From ANME-2 cluster archaeon (GTDB lineage: Archaea > Halobacteriota > Methanosarcinia > Methanosarcinales > Methanocomedenaceae), in NCBI GenBank assembly GCA_019429385.1, contig JAHYIS010000004.1, forward strand, positions 71,597 through 108,379: DNA of 36,783 nucleotides. Direction: 5' to 3'. Made by a program: the position numbers and the translations under genes. Shown in pieces: positions 8,136 to 17,865 of this stretch. The notes below the pieces were generated by a model. It was not told the origin of the DNA and did no database searches. It worked only from the letters and a program-made list of their open reading frames with translations. Each line of letters begins with the position of its first letter. Position 1 is the stretch's first letter.

Positions 8136-8357
8136 ATGCTTAAATGCTTTATACATGATGAAAATAAAGAAACCGAAGAAGCAGTTGCGGTATGTATCGT
8201 GTGCGGTATGGGATTATGTATGGAACACGCCCAGCGTGCTGACCTGCAGATATGGGAAGGCAAATACCCTATGCCAGTTAAGGTCATGAAAACAAACCTT
8301 CCCCGTTTTCTTTGCAAATATTGCATCGAATCAATATATACAACAGGGTGTGAATAA
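8136..8357 (+). CDS. DUF2180-type small zinc-ribbon-like protein, copy 2
   Basis: 73-residue paralogue of the preceding gene. The shared core is CIVCGMG-LCMEHA with matching flanking cysteines (Cys4, the CIVC pair, and CKYC near the end), plus the shared IWEGKYP-type stretch. The first Cys pair differs: here it reads KCFIHDE, so one cysteine of the CxxC in copy 1 is replaced by histidine. The start at 8136 has GGAGTGA five nt upstream. Tandem duplication is clear. It is probably cotranscribed with copy 1 and perhaps with the S-layer-like gene that follows. Confidence 0.85.
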   Translation: MLKCFIHDENKETEEAVAVCIVCGMGLCMEHAQRADLQIWEGKYPMPVKVMKTNLPRFLCKYCIESIYTTGCE

Positions 8358-8418
8358 AGGGGTACATCCATGTATCCCATTTTCATTTTTCCAAAACTTT
8401 TATCCTAATGGTGGCTCT

Positions 8419-9618
8419 ATGATAAACGAACCATATATCAAAAGAATTCTCGCCTTGCTTTTCTTACTTATTGTTGTGTCATCATTTTTTATAGCTCCTT
8501 CACTTGCCCTGGAAACAAGGTCAATGATACTTACCGGTGAAAGAGTATTGGGTATTGGTGAATCATATGAACTCTACCAGGGATATAGTGTTAACATGGT
8601 AGAACCTGCATCATCCGGAAGGAAGGTGATCATACGGATAACATTTGATGGACAAACCGTTAGCGAGGACAGATTCATTAGCAAGGGCGAGGTCTATAAT
8701 GTTACCAGGAAATATGATGACACAGATTTCATCGTACTTGCTATAACGTTAATGGATGTTGATATCGATGAACTAACCGCTACTATAAGGGTAGTACAAT
8801 ATATTGACCCTTCGCGCCCCACGACAGGATTCCTTATCATTGACCAGGAGGAAAAACTTGAACCTGGTACGTACCTAATCCTGGAACAGGGTTACCGTCT
8901 TAACATTGAAGATTTTGGGACTGATTCAACCACACTTGGTTTGTATAAAAATAATATCATGGTTAAGGAAAGCAAAATGAAAGGAAATGATATTTTCAAT
9001 TATACATTAACTTCAAATGGAAACGACCATACAATTATTTCTTTTACCATTAAGAGTATTTTCAAGGGCAGTACCCGTAGTGCAGTGTTCATAGAACATC
9101 TATACCAGTTCGAAGAACCTTTCGATGCAATACCAGTAGAAACGGTTACATCAACGGAAATGAACGGCACCGACACTAATGATAACAATAACACCGGTAA
9201 AGCCAGTAGCAATATTTCACTCTCTGTTCAGGTCACCAATGATGATGGTGGAAAGAGAATTTATAAGAATCAAAGCATAAATGTAACCTATTATCTTAGC
9301 GGCAGTGATTCATTTGATTCAACACGCATAACACTTGATGGAACTATCATAGAAGAGTTTATTGCCCCACACCCCGGAATGCACAGTATCAAACTTGAAC
9401 CTTTACCCGTCGGCAGCCATATTATTGAGGTTTCAGCCATATCGGGTGATGGCGGACGTATTTCGCATGAAACGAAACTATATGTTAGAAAGAACTTTGC
9501 TGAAAATCTCATCATCCCTGAAGTAAATCTAACATTTGCTCCAGTCGTCTTTGCAATAACATCCTTACTTTTGATTATCTGGGCGGCAATGCGAAGACCA
9601 AAAAAGGATGAATGGTAA
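8419..9618 (+). CDS. Membrane-anchored S-layer-type surface protein
   Basis: About 399 residues. The N-terminus is a signal peptide (IKRI, then a leucine/valine core ending near APSLA), so I start at the ATG at 8419 rather than 8350. Two successive beta domains follow, each with an 'L.xGY' pattern (ELYQGYSVNM and LILEQGYRLNI), resembling the duplicated S-layer domain of Methanosarcina surface proteins. An Asn/Thr-rich linker (TNDNNNTG) leads to a third, Ig-like domain, then a C-terminal membrane span with an RRPKKDEW tail. Many N-x-S/T sequons are present. It is anchored outside the cell and probably glycosylated. Whether it is a main S-layer component or an accessory protein is not known. 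Confidence 0.75.
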   Translation: MINEPYIKRILALLFLLIVVSSFFIAPSLALETRSMILTGERVLGIGESYELYQGYSVNMVEPASSGRKVIIRITFDGQTVSEDRFISKGEVYNVTRKYDDTDFIVLAITLMDVDIDELTATIRVVQYIDPSRPTTGFLIIDQEEKLEPGTYLILEQGYRLNIEDFGTDSTTLGLYKNNIMVKESKMKGNDIFNYTLTSNGNDHTIISFTIKSIFKGSTRSAVFIEHLYQFEEPFDAIPVETVTSTEMNGTDTNDNNNTGKASSNISLSVQVTNDDGGKRIYKNQSINVTYYLSGSDSFDSTRITLDGTIIEEFIAPHPGMHSIKLEPLPVGSHIIEVSAISGDGGRISHETKLYVRKNFAENLIIPEVNLTFAPVVFAITSLLLIIWAAMRRPKKDEW

Positions 9619-10175: not shown

Positions 10176-12827
10176 GTGGCAGACCATAAATACGTATATT
10201 TTTTCGGTGGAGACAAAACTGAAGGTAATGCAGGAATGAAAAATCTGCTTGGCGGTAAGGGTTCCCATCTGGCTGAAATGGCAAAACAGGGAATACCGGT
10301 GCCTCAAGGATTTACCTTAAGTACTGAGGTATGTACCGTTTATTACAATCACCGGCAGCATTATCCAGATGGTGTGGAAGAACAGGTAGCTGAACAACTT
10401 GCAAAGCTGGAGAAGGATACAGGGTTTATATTTGGCGACCCGGTCAAACCTTTATTGTTATCTGTCAGGTCAGGTGCCCGGATATCCATGCCAGGTATGA
10501 TGGATACCGTGCTCAACCTGGGACTTAACGACAAAACCGTTGTCGGCCTCGCACAGGAAGCGGATGAGAGGTTCGCCTATGATTGTTACAGGCGTTTCAT
10601 AAACATGTTCGGGGATGTGGTGCTGGGCATCGAGCATAAGGAATTTGAGAATATCCTGCATGCAAAGAAGGTTGAACTGAAGGTAACCAATGACACCGAA
10701 CTGGATACTAAAGCCCTCAAAGACGTAGTGGTAAAATATAAAGCACTGGTCAAATCAAAGACAGGTGAGCACTTCCCCGAGGACCCGATGGACCAGTTGT
10801 GGAGATCCATCAATGCCGTTTTCGATTCCTGGAATACAAAACGGGCCATTACGTACCGGAAGATACACAATATCCCGGACGATTGGGGCACTGCCGTGAA
10901 CGTGCAGTGCATGGTCTATGGTAATATGGGTGAAAATTCTGGAACCGGCGTAGCATTTACTCGCAACCCGTCCACAGGTGAGAAAATGTTCTATGGCGAG
11001 TATCTCATGAATGCCCAGGGCGAGGACGTAGTGGCAGGAATCAGGACTCCACATCCCATAGAGACCCTGAAACAGGAAATGCCCGAAGTATATGAACAAC
11101 TGGATGACATCAAGGAGAGGCTTGAACACCACTTCAAGGAAATGGAAGATATCGAATTCACGATCCAGCAGGGCAAACTCTATATGCTGCAGACCAGGAC
11201 AGGAAAGCGTACTGCAGCAGCCGCGGTCAAGATTGCTACAGATATGTATGATGAAGGATTGATCACCAAAGAAGAGGCCCTGCTCAAGGTGGAACCCGAG
11301 CAGCTGGACCAGCTCCTTCATCCCATGATCGACCCGAATGAAAAAGTGAGATCAGTAGCCAAAGGACTGCCTGCTTCACCGGGTGCTGCCGTGGGTAAAG
11401 TAGTATTTACCGCGGAACATGCTGAAAAGATGTCCCAGGCAGGAGAGAAAGTGATACTGGTGCGCAATGCGACCTCCCCCGAAGATATCGGCGGAATGTA
11501 TGTTTCCCAGGGTATCCTGACCGTTCGTGGTGGAATGACGTCTCATGCAGCAGTGGTGGCCCGTGGCATGGGAAAGTGTTGCGTGGCAGGATGCGGTGCT
11601 ATTCAGATTGATGAGGAAAAGGGACTGTTCATCGTGAATGGTCATACTATTCATGAAAGCGATTATATCACCTTGAACGGCTCCACCGGTGAGGTTATTC
11701 TTGGACAGGTAAAGCTCATCACCCCTGAAATCAACAGTGAAATGGAAACCATACTGGAATGGGCAGATGAAGTGAGAACCCTTGGTGTGAGGACCAATGC
11801 AGATACACCCAAAGACTCCCAGATAGCCCGGGATTTCGGGGCCGAAGGTATTGGCCTGTGCCGTACCGAACACATGTTCTTTGGCGATGAGCGGATACCT
11901 ATCGTACAGGAGATGATATTGGCCGAGACCGAAAAAGGGAGAAAGGCTGCCCTGGATAAACTGCTGCCCATGCAGCGTGGCGATTTCAAAGGCATTTTCA
12001 GGGTAATGAAAGGATATCCGGTAACCATCAGGCTGCTGGACCCACCCCTCCATGAATTCCTGCCCAAGCATGATGAACTGCTTGATGAGTATATGAAGTT
12101 GAAACCATCCGGAGATACTAAAAAACTCCATGAATTGCAGGAATTGATGAAACGGGTAGAATCCCTCCATGAGGTCAATCCCATGCTGGGACATCGTGGA
12201 TGCAGGCTGGGTATAACCTATCCTGAGATTTATGATATGCAGGTCAGGGCAATATTTGAGGCTGCCTGCGAACTGGCAAAGGAAGGATATGAGATCGTGC
12301 CTGAAGTGATGATACCCCTGGTCGGGCATATCAACGAGTTCAAGATAACCAAAGAGAGTGCGAAATCGGTTGCCAGGCAGGTCATGGATGAGCAGGGAGT
12401 TGAACTGGAATACCTTATAGGTACCATGATAGAATTGCCCAGGGCCGCCATTACTGCAGATGAGATAGCAGGTGAGGCCGAATTCTTCAGTTTCGGTACC
12501 AATGACCTGACCCAGACAACGTTCGGCTTGAGTCGTGACGATGCAGGTAAGTTCTTACCCTATTATGTGGAGCACGGCATACTTGAGATCGACCCCTTTG
12601 TAGCAATCGACCAGAAAGGTGTGGGACAGCTCATCAAGATCGGGGTTGAGAAGGGGCGGTCGACCAGGCCGGACCTGAAGGTCGGTATCTGCGGCGAACA
12701 CGGCGGCGAACCCAGCAGTGTGATATTCTGCCATAATATCGGGCTGGATTATGTAAGCTGCTCGCCATTCAGGGTTCCTATTGCCAGGCTGGCTGCGGCC
12801 CATGCTGTGTTAAAGAAGGATGAATAG
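10176..12827 (+). CDS. ppdK: Pyruvate, phosphate dikinase
   Basis: 883-residue cytoplasmic enzyme that interconverts pyruvate, ATP and phosphate with PEP, AMP and pyrophosphate; in methanogens it feeds gluconeogenesis. All three parts are seen: an N-terminal ATP-grasp domain (about 1-350, including LLGGKGSHLAEM and RSGARISMPGMMDTVLN), the phosphohistidine domain with catalytic His457 in GGMTSHAAVVARG, and the C-terminal PEP/pyruvate barrel with FGTNDLTQT and the catalytic Cys in GICGEHGGEP. Length is normal for the family. The start is GTG with GGAGG seven nt upstream. It is followed by a hairpin overlapping the stop codon, so it is probably a single-gene unit. Confidence 0.97.
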   Translation: MADHKYVYFFGGDKTEGNAGMKNLLGGKGSHLAEMAKQGIPVPQGFTLSTEVCTVYYNHRQHYPDGVEEQVAEQLAKLEKDTGFIFGDPVKPLLLSVRSGARISMPGMMDTVLNLGLNDKTVVGLAQEADERFAYDCYRRFINMFGDVVLGIEHKEFENILHAKKVELKVTNDTELDTKALKDVVVKYKALVKSKTGEHFPEDPMDQLWRSINAVFDSWNTKRAITYRKIHNIPDDWGTAVNVQCMVYGNMGENSGTGVAFTRNPSTGEKMFYGEYLMNAQGEDVVAGIRTPHPIETLKQEMPEVYEQLDDIKERLEHHFKEMEDIEFTIQQGKLYMLQTRTGKRTAAAAVKIATDMYDEGLITKEEALLKVEPEQLDQLLHPMIDPNEKVRSVAKGLPASPGAAVGKVVFTAEHAEKMSQAGEKVILVRNATSPEDIGGMYVSQGILTVRGGMTSHAAVVARGMGKCCVAGCGAIQIDEEKGLFIVNGHTIHESDYITLNGSTGEVILGQVKLITPEINSEMETILEWADEVRTLGVRTNADTPKDSQIARDFGAEGIGLCRTEHMFFGDERIPIVQEMILAETEKGRKAALDKLLPMQRGDFKGIFRVMKGYPVTIRLLDPPLHEFLPKHDELLDEYMKLKPSGDTKKLHELQELMKRVESLHEVNPMLGHRGCRLGITYPEIYDMQVRAIFEAACELAKEGYEIVPEVMIPLVGHINEFKITKESAKSVARQVMDEQGVELEYLIGTMIELPRAAITADEIAGEAEFFSFGTNDLTQTTFGLSRDDAGKFLPYYVEHGILEIDPFVAIDQKGVGQLIKIGVEKGRSTRPDLKVGICGEHGGEPSSVIFCHNIGLDYVSCSPFRVPIARLAAAHAVLKKDE

Positions 12828-12881: not shown

Positions 12882-13220
12882 ATGCCCGAGATTATAGAAT
12901 GCGAATCTGGAACGCATCCAGTTGTGGATGCCCACGGCCAACCCCTTGAGGTAGGAAGCCCTGTACGGTATGGTGGGACCGGTACTACCGGTCATGTAAC
13001 CGAGATCATCTGTGATTCGGAAGGTGCATGGGCAATTATCGATACCAAAGACCTGCTGTACAAGCTTGAATCACTTACTTTGCTCACTGAACTGCAACAG
13101 AAAGATGAAATGGGAGAGCGGCAGTTTACCAAAGAAGAGATTGAGGAAGTGCTGGAGAAAGCAAAGGACGATGCCAAGGAAGCCAGACTGGACGATGCAA
13201 ATCTGGAAGCTGGCGGATAG
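12882..13220 (+). CDS. DUF2098-type conserved archaeal protein
   Basis: 112 residues, conserved among methanogens. The first 70 residues form a small beta domain (VGSPVRYGGTGTTGHVTEI, DSEGAWAIIDTKDLLYKLESL), recalling an SH3/KOW-like barrel. The rest is a highly charged helical tail (EEIEEVLEKAKDDAKEARL) with probable coiled-coil character. An AAGGAAT stretch precedes the ATG. It is followed by the DUF2117 gene after 11 nt, which suggests a functional pair. No biochemical role is known to me. Confidence 0.75.
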   Translation: MPEIIECESGTHPVVDAHGQPLEVGSPVRYGGTGTTGHVTEIICDSEGAWAIIDTKDLLYKLESLTLLTELQQKDEMGERQFTKEEIEEVLEKAKDDAKEARLDDANLEAGG

Positions 13221-13231
13221 ACACTTACTGT

Positions 13232-14344
13232 ATGACACGTATTGGTGTCGTTATCCATGGACCTGCAGTCATCGATTCAGGGAGAGCTAACACAGTACTT
13301 GAAATAGTCGCCGGTATGGGTGAGGTCAGGGCTGTACTTGGCGGTACTATGGGCAGGGCAGCCGTGATCGATGCGGGACTGGAAGATGTTATTGATATCA
13401 GCGCAAGCCAGAAACCCAGCGAATCAGTTTTAGCTCTGGGTACGTGTTGTGATGCGGTGTTGCTGGTCAATGAGGGGAAATGTGCCAGGTCCGGGTTTGC
13501 CTTCGGCCACATGGTTTTTGAAATCCTTGGTTCCTGTGCCGTACCACTGATACAGGTTGAGTTCGCATCGCCAGAAGTCGGTGGTTGTGTATTGATACCC
13601 TGGACTGGGATGACTGATTCCCTATTGATGCATGCCCTGCTGGACGGACTTGAAAAATGGGTCGGGGTCAGAGTAGTCCAGCCGCCTGGATCCCTGACAT
13701 GCCTTGAGATAAAGGATGATTTGATCAGGAGGAGGATTGCCGGTGTCAGGCCGGGTGAATACATTACGGTCAATGGCTTCGTGGTCGGTAAAGCTCTGTC
13801 AGATGTGGTTTGTATCGTTGCCAGGAATGGCGCCATTATTGAACTTCAGGGCGGCAGGCTGAAGGCCCACGGAGTCGATAAACTGAAACAGGTTGACCTT
13901 ACAAATGCTATTGTGAGATCAGGACCGCTCAGAACTGCTGATGTTACACCAAGGGTACTTAAGCACAACGTTTCAGGAATTGTGGTGATCATCGACCATT
14001 CGGCAGAGCAGACCTTTGAGATTGCCAAGGACGCGGATGTTGCAGTGACAGTTGGTGATGATACAACAGCAGTAGCCGGGGATTTATTGACCAGGCTGGG
14101 CATACCCTTGATAGGGATTACTGATGGTGACCTGGACGGTATCACTCATCATATTCACATACCCCAGAGTTCAGTAATCATACGGTTGGCACCCGGGAAT
14201 GATGATATTGTGGGGCACCGGGTGTATGAGGAGATTTTCGGTGGCAGGGATAGGATTGAGATGGGAAGTGCTGGGTTTAAGGGGATACTGGATGATGTAC
14301 TGGAAATCGCTGAAGGACTGGTTGAGGACATATTACGGTATTGA
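13232..14344 (+). CDS. DUF2117-type conserved archaeal protein
   Basis: 370 residues. I recognise it as a DUF2117-type archaeal family protein with moderate certainty. It begins IGVVIHGPAVIDSG and shows repeated Rossmann-like glycine-rich turns (AVLGGTMGRAAVIDAG; VTVGDDTTAVAGDLLTRLGIPLIGITDGDLDG), suggesting two alpha/beta domains. Acidic and histidine residues cluster in the second (DGDLDGITHHIHIP), possibly a metal or nucleotide site. It has no signal peptide or membrane span. It is closely coupled to the DUF2098 gene upstream and convergent with gfcR. Enzymatic activity is not established. Confidence 0.75.
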   Translation: MTRIGVVIHGPAVIDSGRANTVLEIVAGMGEVRAVLGGTMGRAAVIDAGLEDVIDISASQKPSESVLALGTCCDAVLLVNEGKCARSGFAFGHMVFEILGSCAVPLIQVEFASPEVGGCVLIPWTGMTDSLLMHALLDGLEKWVGVRVVQPPGSLTCLEIKDDLIRRRIAGVRPGEYITVNGFVVGKALSDVVCIVARNGAIIELQGGRLKAHGVDKLKQVDLTNAIVRSGPLRTADVTPRVLKHNVSGIVVIIDHSAEQTFEIAKDADVAVTVGDDTTAVAGDLLTRLGIPLIGITDGDLDGITHHIHIPQSSVIIRLAPGNDDIVGHRVYEEIFGGRDRIEMGSAGFKGILDDVLEIAEGLVEDILRY

Positions 14345-15055: not shown

Positions 15056-15544
15056 TCAATGGCTCGCCCTGCGTCTTTTTATTGCACAACCACATATCTT
15101 GCACTCACTGCCAGACTTCACTACTACTCCGCATCCCGTACAGTACAGTTCCCATACTATTCCTTTTGAAATCCCTGTTGAACCGGCAGGCTTGAACTCC
15201 ACTTTAAGAACAGAAGCCACATTCTGGACAGCATAATCATCAGTTACAAGGGTCACCGTAAATTTTTGTATAAGTTCAAGGGCCTTTGCGAGCACATCAA
15301 TATCAGTATGAGAGAGCACACCTGCATCCCCTGTAGATACTGCAGCTGATACTACCTGTTCTTTGAATGTAGCAAGGGGCGGTTCGACTCTCATACCTGC
15401 ATCCTGCATCAGGTCAAACCTTAAACGGCTGGAGCTGTCAATAATCTCGTATTCAACAGAAGGCACTGTTATTATGGCACCATCCGTTATCTGTACACCC
15501 ACAATAAAGCCGGAAGTATCAATAACATATACTTTATCTTCCAT
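15056..15544 (-). CDS. nob1: Ribosome-maturation endonuclease Nob1
   Basis: 162 residues. The N-terminal PIN nuclease domain begins YVIDTSGFI, with the first catalytic aspartate, and contains further acidic residues in SHTDIDVLA and LVTDDYAVQN. The C-terminus is a zinc ribbon (CTGC...CKICGC). Archaeal Nob1 cleaves the 3' end of 16S rRNA precursor in the late 30S particle. AGGTAA precedes the ATG. It is only 4 nt downstream of the repeat-containing membrane protein, so the two are probably cotranscribed. Confidence 0.92.
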   Translation of the reverse strand: MEDKVYVIDTSGFIVGVQITDGAIITVPSVEYEIIDSSSRLRFDLMQDAGMRVEPPLATFKEQVVSAAVSTGDAGVLSHTDIDVLAKALELIQKFTVTLVTDDYAVQNVASVLKVEFKPAGSTGISKGIVWELYCTGCGVVVKSGSECKICGCAIKRRRASH

Positions 15545-15548
15545 TTGT

Positions 15549-17252
15549 TTACCTGTTTATCTTTGCTGCCGAATTATATTCTTTTTCAAAATGATTGAAA
15601 CGTTTAGTCTCGTCAGCACCAAAATAGCGCTCGAGTTCCTTTATCATTTTATCGACCTTCACACGCTCCAGTTCTGAGAGCCTGGCAAATGCATTTGCAG
15701 AAATCGAAATAGAATTTTCCAGTCCTTCCGTGATGGGATACCTGGCCACTTCCTTTAATGCCCATACAGCCTGGTCCACTGCATCCCCAAGTTTTCGCAG
15801 TGATGACTCCACACCCACATTTGCAAGAGCAGTAACCACTACATTAAGACCTGTTTCTTCCCGCTGGTATCCATAGGACAGCCCGATATCCTTGATAGAC
15901 CAGATAGCCTGTTCAGTACCCAATTCCAGTTTATTTGATGCCGCGATAACGCCCATTTCTTCCAGTTTGGATACTATCCTGACACTCTCTTCAATCAGGT
16001 TGTTCTGGACGGCTGAAGTGCCAATATCGCGTAATTTAAGGGCAGTTTTCCTCACGGCCCCTTCTACAGAATGTACTGCAGCCTCCCTGCCAATATCATA
16101 TAATGCATTAATGGAATTATTCAGGGTATCCATTTCCTTACTTCTGATGGCAGCTGCTCCAATAATACCCAGCATATTTCCTGCTTTCGAAGATGTCGAA
16201 TCTATGCTGTGAGCTGCCGCTGCAATTCCAATCTTTCTGACAGCACCGGTAACCGTTATCTTCATAATCTCAAAATTTTTCTGGCTCAACACGTCATAAT
16301 ATTCAAATATTCGTCTCAGTATGTCATCAGCAGGGGCATCAAATCCCCTGGTCACAGCACACTTGCCAATATCACCCAGAGTTTCAATAGTTTCGTTGGC
16401 AGCCTCGTCCTCATCCATGCGCAGGGCCAGTTTGCCAATATCATCAATATGACCCACGAAATGTAATGTGACCTTTACAAGATTGTGTTTGCGCATACCA
16501 GAAGCCGTCATCAGTTCAATACTTTTATGCTTCAATATGGACAGGCCGAACATGGACGGACCGAGCACATCTTTCATTATCGAACCCCTGATTATATCCA
16601 CAACCGGCTGGACAGGGTCACGCTCGTGCATCTGGCTCCCGCTGCTCTGGACAGTAAGCAGTACATTGTCCCTGGTAATCTCATTTGAAAAACGTTCAAA
16701 ACTATGGGTATACTGTTCATTTTGTAAATATTTGTAAATGCCATGTCCAGCATAACCCACTCCTGCTGAAGTCAAAACTGCTAAAAAAAATGGAGTTATC
16801 AGTGATTTCCAGTTATCTGCTCCTATTTCGACTACATTGAACATCATCATTAAACTGAATGTCAATCCGGTGGAACCCAGGATATAGGAAAGAGATTCCC
16901 TGGTACTGCTATGTTTCCTGAAGTAGTATGTGATGTTCTGAATAACGTTGGTCGAGTGTTTACGTGATGGTTTTCTTCGTTTCAATAGCCAGACCGTCAA
17001 GAACCAGATAAATAATGTAAGGACCAGCGTTACTATGTGAACCAGGATATTTATGTGCATCTCTCCTGACGTCCACACTGGCAAGGTCAACATAGTGACC
17101 TGTATGAAAAGCGCGCCAAGACAAATATCAGAACCAACTGATCTGAGGTTTTGCCCGTTCACATATTTCAGGTACAATACCATCAGGAAAAAGATACACA
17201 ATAAAATAGCTATAGGTAAGAATTCAAATGCAGCGGAGATAATACCTATCAT
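15549..17252 (-). CDS. Membrane protein with eleven 23-residue helical repeats, function unknown
   Basis: 567 residues. Five hydrophobic helices are visible at about 10-29, 41-58, 66-91, 122-140 and 150-172. From about residue 271 to 523 the sequence is a run of units exactly 23 residues long. The conserved glycine of the DIG-x-x-A motif falls at 273, 296, 342, 365, 388, 411, 434, 457 and 480, with degenerate units at 319, 503 and 526. An alanine and a leucine/isoleucine recur near the end of each unit. The pattern suggests an alpha-helical rod or solenoid on the cytoplasmic side. The last 45 residues are a charged helix. The gene precedes nob1 by 4 nt. I do not recognise the family; it might be described loosely as HEAT/ARM-like, but the unit is too short for those. 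Confidence 0.85.
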   Translation of the reverse strand: MIGIISAAFEFLPIAILLCIFFLMVLYLKYVNGQNLRSVGSDICLGALFIQVTMLTLPVWTSGEMHINILVHIVTLVLTLFIWFLTVWLLKRRKPSRKHSTNVIQNITYYFRKHSSTRESLSYILGSTGLTFSLMMMFNVVEIGADNWKSLITPFFLAVLTSAGVGYAGHGIYKYLQNEQYTHSFERFSNEITRDNVLLTVQSSGSQMHERDPVQPVVDIIRGSIMKDVLGPSMFGLSILKHKSIELMTASGMRKHNLVKVTLHFVGHIDDIGKLALRMDEDEAANETIETLGDIGKCAVTRGFDAPADDILRRIFEYYDVLSQKNFEIMKITVTGAVRKIGIAAAAHSIDSTSSKAGNMLGIIGAAAIRSKEMDTLNNSINALYDIGREAAVHSVEGAVRKTALKLRDIGTSAVQNNLIEESVRIVSKLEEMGVIAASNKLELGTEQAIWSIKDIGLSYGYQREETGLNVVVTALANVGVESSLRKLGDAVDQAVWALKEVARYPITEGLENSISISANAFARLSELERVKVDKMIKELERYFGADETKRFNHFEKEYNSAAKINR

Positions 17253-17472: not shown

Positions 17473-17865
17473 TTACTTCAGTAATTCAGAAATCTTTGCC
17501 TCTAATTGCTGTTTTGGAAGTGCACCCAAAACCCTTCCAACCGGTTTACCATCCTTGAATATCAGCATTGTCGGAACTGCCGTTATGGCGTATTTCATTG
17601 CTGTCTGTGGATTATTGTCAATATCCAGTTTCCCGAAGACGATCTGTCCTGCTTTTTCCTTGGCAAGTGCTTCAATTGTGGGTGCCACCATTCTGCACGG
17701 ACCACACCATACTGCCCAGCAGTCAACTACCAGTTTTGAATGTTCAGTTAAGGCTTTATCCATGTCCTGGTCAGTAAGTTCTATGGGCACGTCAAGTTTG
17801 GGTTTATTCAAGCTTTCTTCCAACTCCTTTAATTTTCGTTTCCTTATCGCTTCCAGTTCATCCAT
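17473..17865 (-). CDS. Thioredoxin with a charged N-terminal extension
   Basis: 130 residues. A standard thioredoxin fold is seen with the redox pair Cys54-Cys57 in WCGPC, KLDIDNNPQTA, and the cis-proline loop VPTMLIFKDG. About 25 extra residues precede it (MDELEAIRKRKLKELEE), a charged amphipathic helix seen in some archaeal thioredoxins and reminiscent of the N-terminus of PDCD5-like proteins. GGTGA lies seven nt before the ATG. It follows a small ferredoxin by 16 nt and probably shares its promoter. It reduces protein disulfides; an upstream flavoprotein might belong to the same redox system. Confidence 0.93.
   Translation of the reverse strand: MDELEAIRKRKLKELEESLNKPKLDVPIELTDQDMDKALTEHSKLVVDCWAVWCGPCRMVAPTIEALAKEKAGQIVFGKLDIDNNPQTAMKYAITAVPTMLIFKDGKPVGRVLGALPKQQLEAKISELLK

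Follow-up and report, generated by a model that had tools for sequence, protein, structure and literature searches.

The window, which comprises 36,783 nucleotides from an ANME-2 cluster archaeon, carries on its reverse strand an open reading frame (15549..17252; ATG at 17252, stop codon at 15549-15551) for a protein of 567 residues with a predicted membrane domain and a predicted solenoid of single-helix repeats. Residues 1-172 (16737..17252; reverse strand, as for all parts of this gene) contain five membrane helices in an AlphaFold2 (AF2) model. Residues 173-254 (16491..16736), delimited by the model and by motif conservation, comprise the continuation of the last membrane helix, an ITRDNVL linker, a DPxQPVVDIIRG segment and connector helices. 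The solenoid extends over residues 255-533 (15654..16490) and was assigned from periodicity, the AF2 model and a comparison of odd and even units. Its 12 single-helix units of 23 residues start at residues 259, 282, 305, 328, 351, 374, 397, 420, 443, 466, 489 and 512. The C-terminal residues 534-567 (15552..15653) form capping helices in the model and include a conserved FxxxY motif. The upstream neighbour on the same strand encodes a thioredoxin (17473..17865, PF00085 with E 2.4e-28). The next gene, also on the reverse strand, encodes a Nob1-like PIN/Zn-ribbon protein (15056..15544, PF17146 with E 8e-15) and is separated from the repeat gene by 4 nt, in agreement with the original prediction. 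Elsewhere in the window an S-layer domain protein (8350-9618, forward strand, PF07752 with E 7.8e-17) is encoded upstream of pyruvate phosphate dikinase (10176-12827). The genes of two archaeal proteins, DUF2117 (13232-14344) and DUF2098 (12882-13220), adjoin each other on the forward strand, and this pair is also adjacent in locus L031.

BLOSUM self-similarity of residues 255-533 at lag 23 gave z = 8.4 against composition-preserving shuffles, and other segments of the repeat region gave z values of 6.7-7.7. Peaks occur at lags 23, 46 and 69 only, with nothing else comparable, and by the same measure the N-terminal 240 residues carry no lag-23 signal (z = 0.04). The in-phase glycines are located at residues 273, 296, 342, 365, 388, 411, 434, 457 and 480, and the degenerate units at 319, 503 and 526 are likewise in phase, both as originally described. 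Nine units with an in-phase Gly and three degenerate ones add up to 12, however, rather than the eleven that had been counted. The repeats had also been called exact, which holds for their spacing but not for their sequence: DIG occurs in five units, and of the 9 units with the Gly, 7 have an Ala three positions further on. In the consensus, position 1 is mostly Glu/Asp, positions 8, 11 and 14 are Ile/Leu/Val, Gly occupies position 15 in 73% and Ala/Ser is found at position 18. Hydropathy profiles correlate with 0.445 between units of the same parity and with 0.451 between units of different parity. Since odd and even units are alike, the repeat unit is a single helix, without an alternation of A and B helices.

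Orthologues are present in 14 genomes of the window's own taxonomic family, and the complete ones nearly all have 567-570 residues. The G001 orthologue is in pieces and that of L013 has a run of N within residues 255-541; neither is counted among the 12 complete members. In these 12 proteins (window included, 50-91% identity) residues 255-541 are free of insertions and deletions, as had been noted for the window protein. The protein with 91% identity stems from a related MAG that is labelled ANME-2 cluster archaeon. A dN/dS ratio of 0.11-0.14 in the solenoid (about 0.12) clearly indicates purifying selection, and the membrane part is under slightly weaker selection than the repeats. The repeat region is an old, fixed domain and not a recent tandem array. 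Among 46 homologues the D, P, P and D of the DPxxPxxD motif are each at least 90% conserved, and F and Y of the C-terminal FxxxY are nearly invariant. Within the solenoid, conservation is highest in units 9 and 11 (mean entropy 0.45 and 0.53), and the neck has a value of 0.50. Units 9 and 11 are the best candidates for a putative binding surface.

The AF2 model of the window protein, calculated with 46 homologues in the alignment, has a pLDDT of 86 and a pTM of 0.78, with mostly 93-98 pLDDT in the repeat blocks; these values have to be read with the over-confidence in mind that AF2 may show on idealised helical repeats. The helical nature proposed for the units is borne out by the model, in which each 23-residue unit forms one helix of ~20 residues plus a 3-residue turn. 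Twelve repeat helices of 15-24 residues, with short turns between them, are followed by the capping helices. Five membrane helices before the repeats, which had likewise been proposed, are predicted at residues 3-32, 36-60, 69-91, 115-137 and 148-191. The last one is extended and runs on as a single 44-residue helix, and the neck with DPxQPVVDIIRG comes next. A second model, calculated for a DUF2254-bearing relative with cleaner repeats, shows the same architecture; both models are monomeric. Structure prediction had been suggested as a check of the repeats, and for both family members it returned a regular helical repeat rather than an irregular fold. As in alpha-solenoids, successive helices of the predicted structure run antiparallel and are stacked regularly, and Foldseek likewise matches this structure to alpha-solenoids. 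Judging from these models, the fold is very probably a solenoid with one helix per unit. The loop between membrane helices 3 and 4 contains eight Lys/Arg and no Asp/Glu. Since this loop is positively charged, the repeats and the C-terminus are predicted to be cytoplasmic according to the positive-inside rule.

For the membrane domain a comparison with DUF2254-type N-termini resulted in an hhalign probability of 86.6% (E 4.5e-6), a single profile comparison that lies partly in the linker. Similar to DUF2254 proteins (PF10011), the membrane helices are followed by an ITxxNVL/DPxQPxxDI neck, with the same order in relatives, and in several relatives the solenoid sits behind a genuine DUF2254 domain. 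In contrast, the window protein is modelled with five membrane helices instead of four, and in repeat-bearing relatives the PF10011 match stops at about profile position 160-210 of 368, with the solenoid replacing the remainder. In the Pfam search the window protein has no PF10011 match and stays below the gathering score for membership, and PF10011 has no match anywhere in the window's genome. At the sequence level the membrane domain is probably a remote, very divergent DUF2254 relative. The main mention of DUF2254 found in the literature predicts that the family includes knotted and unknotted members (PMC11184937). Matches of the N-terminus to LisH and STEVOR were weak, below the cut-offs and outside the repeats, and were discarded.

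In profile searches, 126 of 186 genomes from the order contained relatives, as did 61 of 295 genomes sampled across the phylum, which corresponds to 24 of 107 genera. Three architectures were found: a divergent membrane domain with repeats, seen in a sister family as well as in the window's own; repeats behind a DUF2254 domain; and soluble proteins of ~240-310 residues that consist of repeats only, whose genes are clustered in groups of 4-6 in large genomes presumed to be Methanosarcina. Such clusters with the same 23-residue unit are located at L081 (1338-8170), L082 and L085 in Methanosarcina-like genomes, and another one, in G153, adjoins what look like trp genes. Of the repeat-only proteins, three were scanned against Pfam; two had no match and one had a match below the cut-off. 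Two further proteins, at L083 and L095 (855 and 787 residues), start with DUF2254-type membrane helices, continue with partly repetitive helical regions and are possibly an expanded branch of the repeat family. In 10 of 11 relatives tested lag 23 is the strongest or second-strongest signal, and in the eleventh, the sister-family orthologue at L015, it has nearly faded (z 2.3 against shuffles). Strict equivalence of the units is thus not required everywhere. Gain or loss of single units was considered as proof of the 23-residue unit and rejected: orthologues from genus g16 are longer by 25 residues, which is about one unit, but the length differences of other homologues are not clean multiples of 23. 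Over the repeats neither Pfam nor NCBIfam has a significant match, and our search of the literature on 23-residue repeats and DUF2254 did not find the family described. A function in defence was discarded in view of the lack of a PADLOC match, and a search for spread on plasmids or viruses likewise found no match.

A distinct short helical solenoid or rod had been proposed because 23 residues are fewer than in HEAT, ARM, TPR or Sel1 units. The predicted helical solenoid and the absence of a known family in the libraries searched speak for the distinctness, whereas the argument from length is misleading. Units of HEAT, ARM, TPR and Sel1 repeats comprise two or three helices and 34-47 residues. 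Here a single helix was compared with them, and since two units make a 46-residue, HEAT-sized hairpin, the argument fails. The unusual feature is the equivalence of all helices and not the short unit. An ordinary but strongly diverged HEAT/ARM solenoid, in which the pair of units would be a HEAT repeat with lookalike A and B helices, is nonetheless unlikely. The pair is indeed inside the HEAT size range, and the stacked antiparallel helices resemble those of beta-catenin and the importins. The first natural fold matches of the window protein, found by Foldseek at E 2e-3 and weaker, are ARM/HEAT proteins (SYS-1, beta-catenin and importins, E 2e-3 to 1e-2), alphaRep matches profile A3 (E 7e-4), and HEAT_PBS (E 0.11) came up for no more than a single distant relative. 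However, no Pfam or NCBIfam model of HEAT, ARM, TPR or Sel1 matches the window's repeats up to E = 1, and the units, with one helix each and odd and even ones alike, do not have the two or three helices, distinct A and B among them, of a 34-47-residue repeat. A third helix is missing as well. Moreover, the best matches in both sequence and structure are designed proteins and not HEAT proteins. In the PDB, Foldseek ranks designed circular tandem repeats (7rdr, E 9.9e-6; 6xr1) and designed helical repeats at the top, the first-ranked solved structure having a TM-score of 0.37 over the query, and the best sequence-profile match is the designed DHR14 (5h7c, E 4.5e-12). Homology to DHR14 was rejected, since DHR14 is a synthetic protein and the match, besides being biased by composition towards a generic idealised helix, is weak in the individual domains; the sequence match to designed repeats is almost certainly convergent. 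Short idealised helices, turns of 2-3 residues and near-identical units are shared with DHR14 (5cwh, 5h7c), tcTRP24 (7rdr) and DHR54 (5cwl), although these proteins are man-made and the units of DHR14 and tcTRP (57 residues) hold two helices. The repeat family is closer to computer-designed proteins than to any natural protein.

The necks of DC-SIGN and DC-SIGNR have the same repeat length, are helical and are located beside a membrane anchor. The DC-SIGN neck is built from 23-residue units that open with a short non-helical, proline-bearing region and assemble into a tetrameric coiled coil (PMC5275740), and a DC-SIGNR neck chain was matched at E 1.2. That the repeats form an oligomeric coiled-coil stalk of this type instead of a solenoid is, however, very improbable. 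The DC-SIGN necks are extracellular and have proline-containing linkers, whereas short turns lie between the units of the window protein, and only 2 of the 12 contain proline. For two different family members AF2 places high-confidence turns between all helices, giving helix-turn-helix models rather than a heptad coiled coil, and the conserved small residues and hydrophobics occupy a broad face and not an a/d heptad stripe. For the function, the neighbouring genes suggest two further readings. A link to ribosome maturation had been considered on the basis of nob1, which is the next gene in each of the 13 family genomes with adjoining sequence, in several of them with overlapping stop and start codons. 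The order thioredoxin, repeat gene, nob1 and gfcR is conserved in this family, thioredoxin being upstream in most loci with enough flanking sequence, and in the window's family only, repeat gene and nob1 are probably co-transcribed. But almost every genome of the order has nob1, and outside the window's family it does not adjoin the orthologue: in three complete or near-complete sister-family assemblies (G031, G042 and G045) the distance is roughly 80-105 kb, and for relatives in other families nob1 was absent from the flanking sequence examined. The link is therefore weak, and we regard it as extremely unlikely. Slightly less remote, though still improbable, is a role as auxiliary or regulatory subunit of a Kv-type potassium channel, for which, going by gene order and protein families, the solenoid might serve as cytoplasmic coupling arm. 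In 29 of 33 sister-family genomes an Ion_trans gene (PF00520, E 6e-38) is located on the same strand no more than 10 kb upstream of the repeat gene, and in 12 of these 29 it is directly adjacent (<100 bp). Against this, ftr is equally regular downstream in the sister family, which may reflect inherited gene order. No orthologue of the channel was found in the window's genome, where the only match was one of 32% over 79 residues, or in six further genomes of the window's family, which gave no match or a best E of 2e-9, and the soluble members of the repeat family need no channel. Since the nob1 linkage is confined to one family and ftr is equally regular, we treat both associations as gene order and not as function. 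As a side observation, the product of L101:6009-6908 and its orthologues are Kv-type channels whose C-terminal tail contains two pairs of Cys and resembles a zinc ribbon; this type of channel gene is directly upstream of the repeat gene in genus g15 and near it in g16 and g27.

The reading that we favour, and consider somewhat probable as a whole, is that of a membrane-tethered alpha-solenoid of 12 equivalent units that serves as cytoplasmic scaffold or adaptor. Five membrane helices, with the N-terminus outside and the C-terminus inside, would hold a cytoplasmic arm. Each unit would be an amphipathic helix of ~20 residues with a 3-residue turn, and all twelve would be structurally equivalent. 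Presumably, the small residues (Gly at position 15, Ala at position 18) allow close packing of adjacent helices, and Leu/Ile/Val at unit positions 8, 11 and 14 may form the core. Successive units would be flipped by ~180 degrees, as deduced from sequence and model, so that the rod would have two antiparallel layers and its two faces would be equivalent. If all units are equivalent, twelve applications of one rigid transformation would produce a rod, straight or twisted, whose two faces are alike, in contrast to the curved arc of HEAT repeats. These faces may bind a partner, probably via the neck with DPxQPVVDIIRG and the two units, 9 and 11, whose conservation stands out. A scaffold is the simplest function, because conserved surface patches are present and no catalytic domain is recognised in any architecture seen; for this function as such we see about even chances.

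We tentatively propose, as a possibility on the doubtful side of even, that the repeats represent a natural class of alpha-solenoid. In this class a single helix would be the repeat and every helix would be equivalent, forming a rod with two identical faces. Such an idealised architecture may have evolved independently in archaea, fused to DUF2254-type membrane domains and also as clusters of soluble paralogues. Although nothing in the libraries searched matches it, the family is present in two thirds of the genomes of the order. Although the family alone does not solve a long-standing biological question, it places DUF2254, a large family without an assigned function, in an architectural context. 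As a natural counterpart to designed helical repeats, it lets one ask how nature reaches idealised solenoids.
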